Below, in pieces: positions 3,534-10,059 of a stretch of 10,059 nucleotides of DNA. Under the pieces are notes generated by a model. It was not told the DNA's origin and did no database searches. It saw nothing but the letters and a program-made list of their open reading frames with translations. Origin of the DNA: an uncultured Oscillibacter sp. (GTDB lineage Bacteria; Bacillota; Clostridia; Oscillospirales; Oscillospiraceae); the NCBI GenBank assembly GCA_905233795.1, contig CAJOFP010000042.1, positions 1 through 10,059 of the forward strand, written 5' to 3'. The number at the start of each line of letters is the position of its first letter. The stretch's first letter is position 1. Both the position numbers and the translations under genes were made by a program.

Positions 3534-3791
3534 ATGATACGCGAATGTAAGATATGCGGCGCGAAGTATGAGACCTGTTATTTATGCGAACGCCAAAAAA
3601 GCTGGCGGGTTCATACGGATACGGCGTCGCATTATCAGATATTTGTTATTTTAATGGAATATCAAAGCGGGCGTGACGCGTCGGAGGTTTATGACGCCCT
3701 CCGGCGCGTCGGCGTTGATTTTAATAGTTTAAATATTTATCTGGAAGATATAAGGCGATTATTGGAGAAAATACGGGGTTATAGAATATGA
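3534..3791 (+). CDS. Small CxxC-CxxC zinc-ribbon-like phage protein
   Basis: This 85-residue protein starts at ATG 3534. Its N-terminus has four cysteines, C5-x2-C8 and C15-x2-C18 (CKICGAKYETCYLC), a spacing that can hold one zinc ion in a short ribbon or knuckle. The remaining residues 30-85 look helical (YQIFVILMEYQSGRDASEVYDALRRVG and IYLEDIRRLLEKIRGY). It is not a typical structural protein; a nucleic-acid-binding or regulatory role is possible. It overlaps the RuvC-like gene by four bases (ATGA, 3788-3791), so the two are probably translationally coupled and may act together. Its ribosome binding site lies in the 3' arm of the preceding hairpin. I cannot assign a named family. Confidence 0.6.
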   Translation: MIRECKICGAKYETCYLCERQKSWRVHTDTASHYQIFVILMEYQSGRDASEVYDALRRVGVDFNSLNIYLEDIRRLLEKIRGYRI

Positions 3792-4380
3792 TAAAAATTT
3801 TAGCGTTGGATCAGGCGCGGAACGGCGGCTGGGCGGTTTTTGATTATAATCAAAAGAAACTTGCCGCCTACGGATCGTGGTCTTTTCCGACGAATCGTTA
3901 TTCATACGCGCAAGCGATTGTTCAAATTGAAAGTTTTGTAGAAAATTTAATAAAAGCGTATGATATATCAGCCGTGTTTATTGAGGATATTCAGGCGCGT
4001 GTCAATATGCAATCGTTTAAAAAATTAGCGCAGTTGCAGGGTGTACTTGTCAATTTATTTGAAAAGGCGAATATAAGTTATGAATATGTCGCCCCGGCGC
4101 GATGGCAGTCATATTGCGGCGCGGAAATTCTTAAAGAAAAAGCGGAAAAGTCGGAAAACACGGAAGTATACGGCAAAAAGAAATCAAAAGTCATGTCCGT
4201 TCGATTTGTAAAAGAGAAATATAATATTGAAACGGATAATGCAATCTCGCGGACGCCTGTTGTATTGGGACGTGGGCTGTCAATCAATGTGAGGCGCGTA
4301 CAGACGACGAGGGGAAAGTTTTGATTATAAAGGCGGATAAAAACGCGAATAAGAGTAAACGCAAAAAAAATAAGGGGTGA
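3788..4380 (+). pseudogene. RuvC-like Holliday-junction resolvase, frameshifted near 4241
   Basis: The RNase H-like fold of RuvC-family resolvases is recognisable: strand 1 with the first catalytic aspartate (KILALDQA, D8), a turn GGWAVFD, and a second strand with the catalytic glutamate (AVFIEDIQ, E66), followed by QSFKKLAQLQGVLVNLFEK and PARWQSYCGA. These enzymes cut branched DNA using four acidic residues and two metal ions. As read, the frame runs to TGA 4322-4324 with an unrelated arginine-rich end and no late aspartates (178 residues). Adding one base between 4241 and 4242 gives D-N-D-N-L-A-D-A, the expected last acidic motif, then ACCIGTWAVNQCEA and a lysine-rich tail ending at TGA 4378-4380, just before the next gene's ATG at 4385. 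The restored protein would be 197 residues. This is either a real inactivating deletion or a sequencing error. Programmed frameshifting is less likely, because there is no slippery heptamer at the site. It starts in an ATGA overlap with the preceding gene. Confidence 0.8.
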
Positions 4381-5561: not shown

Positions 5562-8500
5562 TTGAATAATGACGACGATTTAAAGATAATTATATCAACG
5601 GAGTTAGAAGCCGATGAGGAAAAATCGGCGAAGCGTATCGCGGCGCAACTTCCCGGAATCGCGGCGTTAATCAATCAGAGAAGCGTAATTCGCGTAGGCG
5701 TGGAGATCAACGAACAGGGCGTCCGGGCGTCGGCGAATCAAATCGTCGCGGATTTACAAAAAATTGAGGCTCATCCGGTTCATGTGGAGTTTAATCTTGA
5801 CCGTGATTCTATCGGTCAATTACAGCGGGAATTGGCTGATTTAAATATCAATCCGGGGATTACGCGTCAGGTGACGGCGGAACTGGATCAAATGTTGACG
5901 CGGATAGACCGTGTCAGTCACGCTTGGAGCGAAACGGGGACTGAAAACGAACGGCTGTTAAATTTATCCATACGCGGCACGGATCAATGGGGACGCACGG
6001 TTGAGGTAGTCAAACAGTTTGTGGAAACTGTGGAGAACGGGGAACTGTCTCTTGAACAGACCGGCTCAACGCTTACGCGCATTACGTCTGATTTTGAAAA
6101 ACAGCGTCAATCGGCGCAAAGAGCGGCTAATGAGAGAATCGCCTATACGGATTCTCTGATGAGAAAATTGTTTGATTTAGAAGCCAGATTTACAGGCGCT
6201 TCCGGGAATCAGGGCTTGACCGACGCGAAATATTTACAAGAAGCGCAAGCTCTTTACGCGGCTATTAACGAAGAGATTAAAAATATGGCCGCCGGAAGCG
6301 GAGAATTGCAAAAGTCGGACAAGTCCCGCGTTGAAAATATGATAGCGTCGTTAAAATTAATGACAAGTCAATATCATACGGCGGAGACGGCGGCGAAAGC
6401 GGTTCAAAAACGGGACGAACAACGATTGTCTTTTTTGCGAAAGCAATCAGACGAACTCGCTAAAATCCAGAGTAAATATACCGGAGGCTCTTCCGCGCAG
6501 CCTGTTTTAAATCATGAACATTTGGCGGATTTAGGTGCGAAATATCAAGAGATCACAAAGATGATTGATAACTATCGCGCCAAACGCGGCGAATTGACGC
6601 GGACGGAAAAAGACGGGATTCAGTCGGCGATTAAAAATTTAGAGCTTTTACGTCAGGAATATCGAAACGCGGAGTATGTCGGCACGAATCTCAGACCGCG
6701 TGATGTAAATACAGTCAACGCGCGTTTTACGGAAGAGTTGCGGCAATACGAGGCGGAGTTGAAAAATTCCGGGAGTTTGACAGACAATTTCCGAGCCCGT
6801 ATTGAGACTTTGCGCGTTAGTTTAAGTACGGCTTTTGATCGAAATAGTTTAATAGCGTATCAAAAAGGCTTTGAGCAGTTACAGGCGGATGTAAAATCAT
6901 TTCAGGCCGCCGAAAAGTTAAAACATGATTTGAACGATATTGACGCGAAAATGACGGTTATGCCCGCCAAGATAGACGCGTTAAACGCCCGATTTAGACA
7001 ATTAAACAATCCCACGGAACAGTTAAAACATGATATGTCGGAATTGTCCGGGCTGATGGACGCTGTCGGACAGGCGAAAGGCGAAAATGAGAAAATCGCG
7101 GCATATGAGAAATTACAGCAAAAAATCAGATTATGCGGCGCGCAGTTAAGCGCTTTGAATACGTCCCAGAGCGCCGGAGTAAGAGAATTTAGATTAACGC
7201 AAAATATTGAAAAGGCGCGGACGGAGTTGGCGCGTCTTTCCAATGTTTGGAGCGCGTTTAAAAGCGACGCGAATTTAAACAAAGAATTTCTTGATCTTGA
7301 AAAGGGACTGGGCAAAGTCAGGACACAGGCGGATTTCCAGAAGTGGACGGCGCAATTTGGCGCGTGGCGCAGTCAGGTCAGAGCGGCGGGAAAAGATGTG
7401 CAGTCGCTATGGGACCAGTTCAAGGGTTTATTCTCAACCGTATCGCGCTATCTCGGCGTGACGATGTTATTGCACAGGTCTTTTATGATATTCAGAAACG
7501 CCGTGCAGACGATTATTGATCTGGATACGGCGATGATTGACCTGAGAAAGACTACCACAATGACCGGGAAAGAACTGACGGAATTTTACTGGGAAGCGAA
7601 TGAGGCGGCGAAACAGCTTGGCATTACGACAAAAGATATTATTCAGTCAGCGGCGAACTGGAGCCGTTTGGGTTTTTCAGACAAAAACAGCGCGATTGAA
7701 ATGTCGAAACTCGCCGCGCAATTTTCGGCGATTTCCCCCGGTCTTGACACGGAAAACGCCACGACCGGATTAGTCAGCGTGATGAAAGCATACGGCATTG
7801 AAGTCAATGACGTGCTTGACGGCGTAATGTCAAAAATTAACAAGATTGGTAATACAGCCGCGACATCGAATCAGCAAATTATAGAAGGTCTCAAACGGTC
7901 GGCGTCCGCGATGGCCGCTATGAACGGGAGTCTGGAAGAAAATATCGCTTTGTTTACGGCGGCGCAGGAAATCGTACAGGATGAGGCGTCCGTCGGCGCG
8001 GCTTTGCGGTCTATCGCGCTCCGGGTGCGCAAGTATAATGAGGAGACGGAACAGCTTGACGAAAATTTAACCAATATCGTCGGGGATGTGATTGATCTCA
8101 CCAAAACGGCGTCCAATCCGAAAGGCGTGTCGCTGTTCACGGACGAAACCCAGACGCGTTATAAAACGGTCTATCAGTATTTGAAAGAAATATCTGAAAT
8201 TTATGATGAGCTTGACGCGAAATCCAGACAGAAATTAGGCGAAAAACTTTTCGGGACGTTGAGACAGAATACCGGTCAGGCGATTTTGAGTAACTTTTCG
8301 GCGGCTGAAAAGGCAATGGCGGATATGGCGGACAGCGCCGGAAGCGCGGACGCTGAAATGTCGATTATCACGGAATCTCTTGAATATCGCATTAACAAAC
8401 TTGGTCAGACATGGGTCGGCGTCGCGCAGAATCTTATAACGGACGATTCCGTCAAAATCGTGATTGATCTTCTCACGGCGTTGTCTCAGACAATCGAATT

Positions 8501-8663
8501 TACAACAGATAAGCTGGGCTTACTCGGCTCCGTTTCCGTTTTAGGGGCGGCGGGGGCGTTGGTACAGCTTGCGAAATCCGCGGGTGAACCCAAACGGACG
8601 GGTTTCTGTCGCGCCCGCGTATATCCCGGTGGCGACACGGAACGAGTAAAATTCGCGGCGTGA
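5562..8663 (+). CDS. Tail tape measure protein, TP901 family, apparently cut short at the C-terminus
   Basis: This 1033-residue protein is read from TTG 5562, seven bases after GGGGTGA (5548-5554). It starts acidic (MNNDDDLKIIISTELEADEE). Residues about 197-610 are long helices with several degenerate 75-95-residue repeats, each with an ARFT- or SKYTG-like segment followed by helices, consistent with a coiled rod. Residues about 625-660 are hydrophobic (YLGVTMLLHRSFMIFRNAV), and about 650-900 form the conserved TP901/phage-tail domain: DLDTAMIDLRKTTTMTG, FYWEANEAAKQLGITTKDII, ANWSRLGFSD and VGAALRSIALRVRKYNEETE. A second hydrophobic stretch follows (LGLLGSVSVLGAAGALVQLA, about 984-1004). The last 27 residues (EPKRTGFCRARVYPGGD onward) are arginine/glycine-rich and unlike the rest. 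The protein sets tail length and is packed in the tail tube. Most relatives continue well past the hydrophobic stretch, so the gene is probably interrupted at about 8580, where structured non-coding DNA begins. Confidence 0.85.
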   Translation: MNNDDDLKIIISTELEADEEKSAKRIAAQLPGIAALINQRSVIRVGVEINEQGVRASANQIVADLQKIEAHPVHVEFNLDRDSIGQLQRELADLNINPGITRQVTAELDQMLTRIDRVSHAWSETGTENERLLNLSIRGTDQWGRTVEVVKQFVETVENGELSLEQTGSTLTRITSDFEKQRQSAQRAANERIAYTDSLMRKLFDLEARFTGASGNQGLTDAKYLQEAQALYAAINEEIKNMAAGSGELQKSDKSRVENMIASLKLMTSQYHTAETAAKAVQKRDEQRLSFLRKQSDELAKIQSKYTGGSSAQPVLNHEHLADLGAKYQEITKMIDNYRAKRGELTRTEKDGIQSAIKNLELLRQEYRNAEYVGTNLRPRDVNTVNARFTEELRQYEAELKNSGSLTDNFRARIETLRVSLSTAFDRNSLIAYQKGFEQLQADVKSFQAAEKLKHDLNDIDAKMTVMPAKIDALNARFRQLNNPTEQLKHDMSELSGLMDAVGQAKGENEKIAAYEKLQQKIRLCGAQLSALNTSQSAGVREFRLTQNIEKARTELARLSNVWSAFKSDANLNKEFLDLEKGLGKVRTQADFQKWTAQFGAWRSQVRAAGKDVQSLWDQFKGLFSTVSRYLGVTMLLHRSFMIFRNAVQTIIDLDTAMIDLRKTTTMTGKELTEFYWEANEAAKQLGITTKDIIQSAANWSRLGFSDKNSAIEMSKLAAQFSAISPGLDTENATTGLVSVMKAYGIEVNDVLDGVMSKINKIGNTAATSNQQIIEGLKRSASAMAAMNGSLEENIALFTAAQEIVQDEASVGAALRSIALRVRKYNEETEQLDENLTNIVGDVIDLTKTASNPKGVSLFTDETQTRYKTVYQYLKEISEIYDELDAKSRQKLGEKLFGTLRQNTGQAILSNFSAAEKAMADMADSAGSADAEMSIITESLEYRINKLGQTWVGVAQNLITDDSVKIVIDLLTALSQTIEFTTDKLGLLGSVSVLGAAGALVQLAKSAGEPKRTGFCRARVYPGGDTERVKFAA

Positions 8664-8782
8664 CGCGGCGCGTTTTACAAGGGGATATTGGCAAAACCGG
8701 TCTTTTTTAGACCGCCGAATATTTCTCAGCCGTCATAGAGAAATGGTAGGCGATGAAATTGGCTCCGAGGACGGCTATTTTA

Positions 8783-8828
8783 CCGGGGCGGCGAGTTTTC
8801 GTCATACTCGTCCGGGAACTCTTTTTTT
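8783..8828 (+). terminator. Possible rho-independent terminator of the tail operon
   Basis: A hairpin with CGAGT (8792-8796) pairing with ACTCG (8806-8810) is extended by G-U and G-C pairs and by CC (8783-8784) against GG (8814-8815), with an internal loop. After four to six further bases comes a run of seven T (8822-8828). Its place, about 120 bases after the tape measure stop and before a strong new promoter, fits the end of the late transcript. The stem is interrupted and the T run is not flush with it, so strength is uncertain. Confidence 0.4.
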
Positions 8829-8833
8829 GATTC

Positions 8834-8855
8834 AATTAAAAATTAAAAATTCAAA
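8834..8855. repeat. Short A/T tandem motif (ATTAAAA twice)
   Basis: Just after the T run the sequence contains two tandem copies of ATTAAAA followed by ATTC, giving a strongly A/T-rich island between two G/C-rich hairpin blocks. It may be an UP-like element or simply low-complexity spacer; no function is supported. It marks a composition boundary within the non-coding stretch. Confidence 0.3.
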
Positions 8856-9067
8856 TCAGGGAATCCGCAGCCAAACTCGCGTCAGGCGAGGAGGTTCAGA
8901 GCAGCGTAATATCGGCGTGGTGAAAATCACGATGGGGCGCTCCAAATCGACCGCGTAAGCGGAAAAATGACGCGCGGTTTCGTCGCCGCGGACCAAAAAC
9001 GACGAAATGAACAAAATAATATAAATATAAAAATTTTTGACTTTAAACGGATATTTTAGATTTAGCG

Positions 9068-9110
9068 TTGACAGAATCAATATCGCGTTGTATAATGATT
9101 GTGATATAAT
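9068..9110 (+). promoter_or_regulatory. Consensus sigma-70/sigma-A promoter of the Panacea module
   Basis: TTGACA (9068-9073) and TATAAT (9091-9096) match the vegetative sigma consensus at all twelve positions with an ideal 17-base spacer. A second TATAAT lies at 9105-9110, overlapping or just after the expected start site near 9103. The upstream 50 bases are very A/T-rich (from 9008). The promoter serves the antitoxin start at 9154 and so gives the module expression independent of late phage transcription. The paired -10-like repeats could be part of an operator for autoregulation, as is usual for toxin-antitoxin operons; this last point is inference. Confidence 0.85.
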
Positions 9111-9153
9111 AATATTGGCGGGACAGTGAATACGTCGTCAAGAGGTGATCGAA

Positions 9154-9648
9154 ATGCTTCGCGCTATGGATGTCGCGCAATATTTTTTGAATAAAGACCC
9201 GGAGCGTAAAATATTTGACAAAAATCTGGTTCATAAGGACGGGCGGACTTTTTACGCCGGGAACGCCAGATTGAACAAATATTTGCATATGGCGCAAAAT
9301 CTGTATATTGCGAAAACAGGGGATCGTCTGTTCTCGGATGATTTATACGCCTATGATAACGGGGCTGTGGTTCCCGACGTTCAGGAATACTATTCCGTTT
9401 TGTATACAAAAAGCGACGCCCCGTCATTGCCGGGAGATATAAAAATTTTTCTGGATCGGGTTTACAAATTTTTGGAAAACGCCAGTCTTGAAGAGTTAAT
9501 AGAGCTATCTCATGAGGATACGGAATGGGAGCGCAAACACGGTTATTTTTATAAGCCGGATCAGCGCATGGATTCTACGCGTCACGCGGAAGAATATAAA
9601 GAACAGTACCGAGACGCTTTGATTGTAATGGAGCGGATGACGGTATGA
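9154..9648 (+). CDS. SocA/Panacea-domain antitoxin
   Basis: This is a 164-residue protein if started at ATG 9154, which sits six bases after AGAGGTG in AGAGGTGATC (9141-9150), a near-complete anti-SD match. A GTG at 9145 would lie inside that site. The core at residues 38-83 has the SocA/GepA/DUF4065 ('Panacea') pattern: ARLNKYLHMAQNLYIAKTG, then RLFSDDLYAYDNGAVVPDV, corresponding to the family's K-L-x-K-L-x-Y-x-A-Q, L-F-x-D and Y-G-P-V-V-P segments (asparagine replaces the usual lysine or tyrosine environment here). A later helix ELIELSHEDTEWERK (115-128) matches the family's L-S-x-x-E-x-x-W segment. Panacea proteins are hyperpromiscuous antitoxins that neutralise unrelated toxins by direct binding. 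The next gene overlaps by four bases (ATGA), the standard antitoxin-toxin arrangement. The N-terminal extension (FDKNLVHKDGRTFYAG) is characteristic of a phage-borne subgroup, from memory only. Confidence 0.85.
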   Translation: MLRAMDVAQYFLNKDPERKIFDKNLVHKDGRTFYAGNARLNKYLHMAQNLYIAKTGDRLFSDDLYAYDNGAVVPDVQEYYSVLYTKSDAPSLPGDIKIFLDRVYKFLENASLEELIELSHEDTEWERKHGYFYKPDQRMDSTRHAEEYKEQYRDALIVMERMTV

Positions 9649-10059
9649 ATGATTTGAAAGTCGGACAGACGCTTGTCTTGAAAATCAGATATAATAATCT
9701 TGGCGATACCGCCGCGACAGCCCATCCATATTTAATCGTGGATATTGATTCCGAGCTTGGCGTCGTGGAGATCGCGCAATTAGACTCGTTAGCCGGTAAA
9801 GAGTATAAAGCGGCGTTTCGGAGTAATAAAGTAATTTACTGTGACAATCCGAAAGAGACAGTGATAGATAAAGACAGCTATATTCAGCTTGATAATAAAT
9901 TCATGCTGGAAAACTGCCCGGATTTATCGCGTTTTCGCCGCCAGACAGATCAATTAAGTCCTGAAAAACTGGAAGATGTTCTGAGGGCGTATCGTTCGTA
10001 TCATCGCGCTCATCATATTGATGAAAACAAAAACGTGTACATGAACAAGGAAGAAATTT
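9645..10059 (+). CDS. Putative Panacea-associated toxin, 3' end outside window
   Basis: The frame opens with ATG 9645 inside ATGA overlapping the antitoxin stop (9646-9648), with GGAG at 9630-9633 upstream, and stays open for 138 codons to the end of the window. The N-terminus is MNDLKVGQTLVLKIRYNN, followed by TAHPYLIVDIDSELGVVEIAQLDSL, a strand pattern with H-P-Y-L-I-V-D that resembles the core of small beta-barrel PemK/MazF-type proteins (R-P-V-x-V-V in that family). Then come YKAAFRSNKVIYCDNP and KDSYIQLDNKFMLENC, then a helical basic C-terminal part (LSPEKLEDVLRAYRSYHRAHHI). No transmembrane segment or nucleotide-binding motif is visible. The toxin role follows from the position after a Panacea antitoxin; the PemK-like reading is tentative. 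Translational coupling to the antitoxin is likely. Confidence 0.65.
   Translation, partial: MNDLKVGQTLVLKIRYNNLGDTAATAHPYLIVDIDSELGVVEIAQLDSLAGKEYKAAFRSNKVIYCDNPKETVIDKDSYIQLDNKFMLENCPDLSRFRRQTDQLSPEKLEDVLRAYRSYHRAHHIDENKNVYMNKEEI

Follow-up and report, generated by a model that had tools for sequence, protein, structure and literature searches.

A putative group I intron with toxin-antitoxin-like cargo in the tape measure gene of a contig from an uncultured Oscillibacter sp.

The tape measure gene and its break point

The DNA analyzed here (the window) is the complete 10,059-nt contig C42 of a MAG of 455 contigs that is 76.6% complete, and because it is a whole contig, later tail genes could not be visible in it. 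In profile searches, an ORF at 5562-8663 (1033 aa) matched the tape measure protein (TMP) family phrog_4211, its residues 508-1004 corresponding to profile positions 473-946 of 2625, and was also covered by TIGR01760 (residues 644-958) and PF10145 (residues 680-898). Past these matches the ORF had no further family match, and since phrog_4211 runs on to position 2625, the window TMP lacks over half of the family profile. The initial annotation had the ORF following the TMP family to about residue 1004 and then changing abruptly to a foreign tail. The phrog_4211 match indeed ends at residue 1004, and splice-site analysis placed the end of the family part at G1008 (base 8585; Table 1). The loss of family similarity was therefore borne out, but the tail comprises 25 residues rather than the 27 first given, and it is not peculiar to the window TMP, as it aligned with the tails of six relatives that had been chosen for similar tails. 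The tail is translated intron RNA and not a protein domain. The stop codon (8661-8663) does lie in a bulged 13-pair hairpin, as had been noticed, namely in the loop of the hairpin at 8646-8678 (-15.7 kcal/mol; 2 of 200 shuffles folded equally well). Upstream of the TMP gene, a RuvC-like resolvase is encoded at 3788-4324 (PF02075, phrog_159).

Table 1. Positions of the features in the window and the evidence for them.
Feature	Position	Strand	Evidence
TMP exon 1 (1008 codons), ending ..AAA TCC GCG GGT	5562..8585	+	phrog_4211 and TIGR01760 matches; gapless junction with exon 2 against intronless TMPs
P1: exon GCGGGU (8580-8585) / guide GCCCGC (8613-8618), U.G at splice site; inner hairpin P1a	8580..8618	+	Covariation in five sequences; fold
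Putative group I intron, 5' part and cargo; contig ends inside; 3' part proposed at L065 1-1115	8586..10059	+	R1 match, helices, exon junction
Intronic read-through tail (25 codons) and stop	8586..8663	+	Alignment with six similar-tailed relatives; splice-site analysis
P2-like hairpin, stop codon in loop	8646..8678	+	Fold; hairpins at comparable place in L009, L019, L079, L143
P3: GCCGA 8714-8718 / TCGGC 8912-8916	8714..8916	+	Strands picked by eye
Group I core Q-R, AATCCGCAGCC..GGTTCAGAG (P4 3' strand, P6, P7 start)	8862..8901	+	Model R1; shuffles
P7 region; 3' strand CGCTC 8938-8942	8893..8942	+	Strands first picked by eye
Sigma-70 consensus promoter-like site, 12/12, spacer 17	9068..9096	+	9 sites found in the stretch scanned vs 3.2 in shuffles
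Panacea/SocA-like antitoxin candidate	9145..9648	+	PF13274, 39.6 bits (cutoff 25.7)
Candidate toxin (predicted MazF fold), truncated at contig end	9645..10059	+	Conserved family; model of 99% relative and Foldseek

Continuation of the gene and its relatives

A search past base 10059 for the missing C-terminal part, as had been suggested, found the continuation on another contig of the same MAG. Contig C60 (L065) resumes the TMP, matching phrog_4211 at 961-1097 and later at 2218-2377 in the profile search. The tblastn alignment of the uninterrupted TMP of L008 to C60 starts at L065:1116, opposite residue 1002, and the same base was also chosen by codon phase and the P10 pairing. When exon 1 and exon 2 were joined at this base, the reading frame was restored, and the translation aligned with the L008 protein over residues 4-1238 (36%), gapless in the approximately 90 columns shown at the junction, and with the L055 protein over 4-1181 (35%), again with no gap around the junction. 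Exon 1 is open throughout and exon 2 for its first 1441 codons. Separately from the junction, exon 2 changes frame near L065:5429 (region L065:5400-6165), where approximately 11 residues are absent and the last part of the protein, corresponding to L008 2513-2758, continues in another frame. C42 and C60 are joined by no read or contig; they are probably neighbors, exon continuity and P10 being the two grounds for their contiguity. C60 shares pieces of 83 bp (96%) and 35 bp (94%) with the window intron, so that tandem copies or strain variants are possible. A transposase fragment lies at the start of C60 (PF01609 above cutoff, IS701-like below the NCBIfam cutoff), and C61 holds DNA similar to this region (84%). 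Further weak TMP-like stretches occur in the same genome on C179 (1617-2330) and C251 (1856-2134).

With residues 500-1033 as query, 513 proteins were retrieved, and 114 of the 120 listed (36 clusters) end near the same site; because hits were restricted to lengths between 0.55 and 1.75 times that of the query, full-length intronless TMPs were left out and this proportion is biased. Scanning viral contigs with the window TMP as a single sequence confirmed no relative. A search with a seven-row alignment recovered 57 TMP loci (L008-L064), 47 in viral contigs and 10 in genome contigs. Single-frame TMPs of 2759-3144 aa are found at L008, L011, L055 and L056. At 23 of the 57 loci, a count based on tblastn that includes near-duplicates, a gap of at least 268 nt is crossed with a step of at most 20 residues in the protein; L023 and L049 are counted solely for gaps of 339 and 372 nt, and up to three such gaps occur per locus (L019, L038 and L050). 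The TMPs of L045, L050, L019, L051, L052 and L064 carry two or three precise interruptions at several different residues.

The K-x-x-G break point that had been proposed for some phages of gut Bacillota was recovered in relatives whose TMPs break at the same codon as that of the window and some of which bear Bacillota host names (e.g. L060, Eubacteriaceae). Both the exon-intron boundary of the window and homologous intron sequence are also present in L009, L019/L020/L038 and L079. The TMP exon of G447 (the record of L089) extends to profile position 944, with the next TMP exon on the same 68-kb contig. The P2-side motif was found in 27 viral stretches, seven of which also show the core no more than 500 nt away (L069, L079, L081, L082, L086, L089 and L092, partly the same phages). 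Among bacterial genomes, only the genome of the window itself was found with the TMP at E<=1e-20 (60 genomes, own included), with the P2-side motif (391 class-level genomes) and with the MazF-fold family at E<=1e-15 (61 family genomes).

Intron anatomy and competing explanations

To explain the break, the initial annotation offered an intron, an insertion carrying the downstream toxin-antitoxin pair, or prophage decay. The group I anatomy found at the break (P1, P3, core, P10 and exon continuity) favors the intron, and the insertion is supported as well, because the pair sits within this intron. Exon continuity, core helices, splice-site pairings and cargo can all be read at the sequence level, and it is highly probable that a group I intron with this cargo splits the TMP gene after codon 1008, a statement about anatomy and not about splicing of this copy.

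A U.G pair stands at the 5' splice site in all five lineage members compared (window, L009, L019, L079 and L089). In these sequences 98.3% of the cells of P1 and P1a are paired and 7 of 12 pairs show two-sided changes, counts that are inflated by the relatedness of the sequences. Compared with 500 shuffles, P1/P1a was equaled by none on four measures and by 57 on the fifth (pair types). P1 and its inner hairpin are also present in the minimum-energy fold, with 12 of 200 shuffles folding equally well. An automatic scan for P1 at 22 loci, which used a lenient pairing rule, picked an incorrect codon in L079 and L024 and, in L009, a different guide. Seven of these loci have no K-x-x-G-type codon ending in T; among the remaining 15, at least six pairs formed in 10 and only three pairs in three, and at least six pairs formed at 10.8% of 1956 control positions.

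At the 3' side, the start of exon 2 can pair with the bases before the guide (P10) by 6, 5, 7 and 9 pairs in window/C60, L009, L019 and L079, respectively, and by 8 pairs in G447/L143, where the site is unique among 3591 positions. In the window two of the six pairs are G-U, and the cross-control is weak, exon 2 forming 6 pairs with its own guide, 5 with either the L019 or the L079 guide and 3 with the L009 guide; in L065, runs of six pairs are seen at 55 of 6242 positions. The intron ends in G (omega-G) in five of five cases (window/C60, L009, L019, L079 and L143), the 3' ends having been picked by codon phase and P10, first by eye.

In the core, the P3 strands of L009, L019 and L089 differ in their letters from those of the window and are still complementary, while the 3' strand assigned in L079 falls within its cargo and probably matches by chance. 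One copy of the Q-R motif is present in the window, and none of 200 shuffles contains it. P7 forms five of five pairs in L009, L019 and L089 and one of five in the same register in the window, whose 5' strand has one extra base compared with L009 and L019. Trained on 15 other viral introns with the window left out, the covariance model R1 matched the window core with 30.6 bits (E 5e-6 in 858 kb), and with 30.9 bits (E 5e-8) when run with filters off on the window alone; the training introns had been selected through a 17-nt core motif also present in the window, so this part of the score is not independent. In the filters-off alignment the P7 pairs of the window are partly non-standard and the 3' strand is placed elsewhere than 8938-8942. 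R1 gave 43-65 bits on L009, L019 and L089 and only 19.8 bits on L079 and its duplicate, because a stretch is inserted in their core. Of its matches at E<=10 in the 858 kb, 35 of 36 lie on the + strand. Outside the junctions studied, R1 gave further group I core hits (36-66 bits) at L015 5084-5184, L047 14744-14871, L051 17470-17551 and L039 23795-23923.

At gathering scores, Rfam returned no match in the window and seven loci, and RF00028 had no match at E 10 on window 8400-10059. Searching L019, L040 and L064 in E-value mode yielded three sub-gathering group I matches, of which L019 had none; the introns of L040 and L064 reached 40.7 and 38.6 bits against a threshold of 50. Five E-value-mode matches on window 8400-10059 were not group I and were taken as chance, the best being ncr952 (23.0 bits vs gathering 100).

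The competing explanation that survives best concerns this copy only, and it shares the anatomy just described. The window may hold an inactive group I intron copy, correct in anatomy and unable to splice, and hence without a functional tail, and we give this almost an even chance. The longer P7 5' strand, the frame change in exon 2 and the transposase fragment in the proposed intron speak for it; against it, the frame is uninterrupted through exon 1 and for 1441 codons into exon 2, and P1, P3 and P10 can form.

Prophage decay would have the TMP cut by a deletion, an insertion sequence or a rearrangement, with the downstream genes as unrelated invaders. The same frame change near L065:5429, the transposase fragment at the C60 start and the irregular P7 would suit it. 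However, each exon is a long open frame, relatives break at this same codon, P1 covaries and the tail is conserved in relatives, all of which make decay very unlikely. Decay leaves the break itself unexplained, but with the exon 2 frame change and the one irregular core strand the window copy may be damaged.

A group II intron or another element has nothing in its favor beyond the interruption itself. Group II introns start with GUGYG, whereas this intron starts with GAACCC; no Rfam group II match was found in the window and seven loci at gathering scores, or in window 8400-10059, L019, L040 and L064 in E-value mode. Group I core motifs are present, and P1, P3 and P10 also disfavor this explanation, which is extremely improbable. 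Equally improbable is an assembly chimera joining the TMP to foreign DNA, which the fragmentation of the MAG (455 contigs, 76.6% complete) might suggest, since the boundary and homologous intron sequence recur in L009, L019/L020/L038 and L079.

Intron cargo and its possible role

The Panacea gene (9145-9648) overlaps the ORF that starts at 9645. It scored 15.1 bits against the SocA antitoxin model NF047745, below the equivalog cutoff of 190. The 9645 ORF has 138 aa in the window, compared with about 139-152 aa in its relatives, and belongs to a family of 227 proteins, of which the 120 listed share at least 60% identity. A model of P0121, a 99% relative (pLDDT 84), was closest to MazF in Foldseek, and the first 15 rows were MazF, Kid, CptIN, CcdB or other toxin-antitoxin entries; the best match, S. 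aureus MazF, had E 8e-4 and TM 0.53 by query length, and only two rows reached E 0.001. On this structural model, the 9645 ORF is a toxin candidate of predicted MazF fold. Pfam had no match for the partner gene (L134 member), PADLOC found nothing in three cargo proteins, and for two of them searching solved structures by sequence was uninformative. The Panacea and MazF-fold unit was present in both viral loci found: in L134, the Panacea gene scored 44.3 bits and an integrase-like gene, as judged from its ORF, adjoins; in L135, the upstream ORF was assessed by eye. C60 bears a second Panacea gene at 538-981. Panacea domains neutralize many different toxins (PMC8832971, as far as its available text goes), and the window resembles PanA toxin-antitoxin pairs, as these are described in the accessible parts of PMC8832971 and PMC10440598, in that a small partner gene follows a PF13274 gene. 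Unlike PanA pairs, the window pair lies inside an intron, and its partner (L134 member) has no Pfam match and is a candidate toxin only. The pair may have toxin-antitoxin activity.

Other introns of the lineage carry other genes. The G447 intron, 2275 nt long and contained in one contig (L143 162-2436), holds a PemK/MazF-family ORF (PF02452, 67.5 bits), two other ORFs with no recognized antitoxin and two 12/12 sigma-70 sites, the sites found numbering 8 vs 6.5 in shuffles. The introns of L009 (13124-13828, - strand), L019 (5500-6192, - strand) and L079 (1874-2554, - strand) hold an antisense zinc-ribbon-like gene (~230 aa), whose Pfam zinc-ribbon scores are mostly below cutoff. Toxin-antitoxin-like cargo is thus present in two of five lineage introns and absent in three. 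The cargo ORFs scanned in these five introns (those of L079 with PHROGs only) matched no homing endonuclease family, and neither did the scanned ORFs of the window and L065, two contigs that may not cover the whole intron. Among the interrupted TMP loci, four ORFs located in such gaps (L040, L045, L064 and L089 1595-2374) were compared with PHROGs, and all four match endonuclease families.

A split TMP gene has a precedent in phage ICP1, where, according to the accessible part of PMC10448857, four exons separated by three introns, whose class is not named there, are joined in RNA. The ICP1 introns hold HNH-3 homing endonucleases, in contrast to the Panacea/MazF-fold pair of the window; phage and host are different, and splicing was demonstrated in ICP1, whereas for the window we infer it (PMC10448857). 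Phage group I introns, as described by RF00028 and the available texts of PMC11878797 and PMC3706429, share with the window P1 with U.G and omega-G, the window showing P3, P6 and P10 as well, and like the window intron they lie in structural or replication genes (PMC11878797; Cluster J mycobacteriophages, PMC3706429). The window copy differs from them in being missed by RF00028 and in having no homing endonuclease among its scanned ORFs. In the Bastillevirinae intron survey, the loop cargo consists of nuclease families, and tape measure and toxin never occur in the available main text (PMC11878797). Toxin-antitoxin cargo in a phage group I intron was not described in the literature covered, which comprised titles and abstract openings with few subscription journals. 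We regard the cargo, with moderate confidence, as unusual for group I introns.

The TMP intron is probably spliced, and splicing by the window copy itself is uncertain. Once transcribed with the late tail genes, the intron would fold as RNA and pair its guide with the exon end (P1); cleavage would follow the U of GGU, and exon 1 would be joined to exon 2, beginning at base 1116 of C60, to give a TMP of ordinary length. On unspliced RNA, translation would stop after 25 intron codons. Its own promoter-like site could make expression of the Panacea/MazF-fold pair independent of the tail operon, so that the intron would offer accessory genes a docking place within an essential gene. A benefit of this cargo is presumed. 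Tentatively, and somewhat short of an even chance, one TMP position in phages related to those of Clostridia may be a lasting docking site, occupied by a homing-endonuclease-free lineage of group I introns with exchangeable accessory genes (the Panacea/MazF-fold pair, the PemK/MazF gene or the antisense zinc-ribbon-like gene), partly behind their own promoters; an essential late gene would then host toxin-antitoxin or defense cargo at little cost, because the RNA would splice it away.

If this is true, group I introns in essential phage genes carry accessory cargo and not only homing enzymes. The intron would also explain the truncated look of the tape measures of this phage group in protein databases. 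Since such introns fall below the threshold of the standard RNA library or are missed by it, genes may be miscalled and tail lengths mispredicted in such phages.
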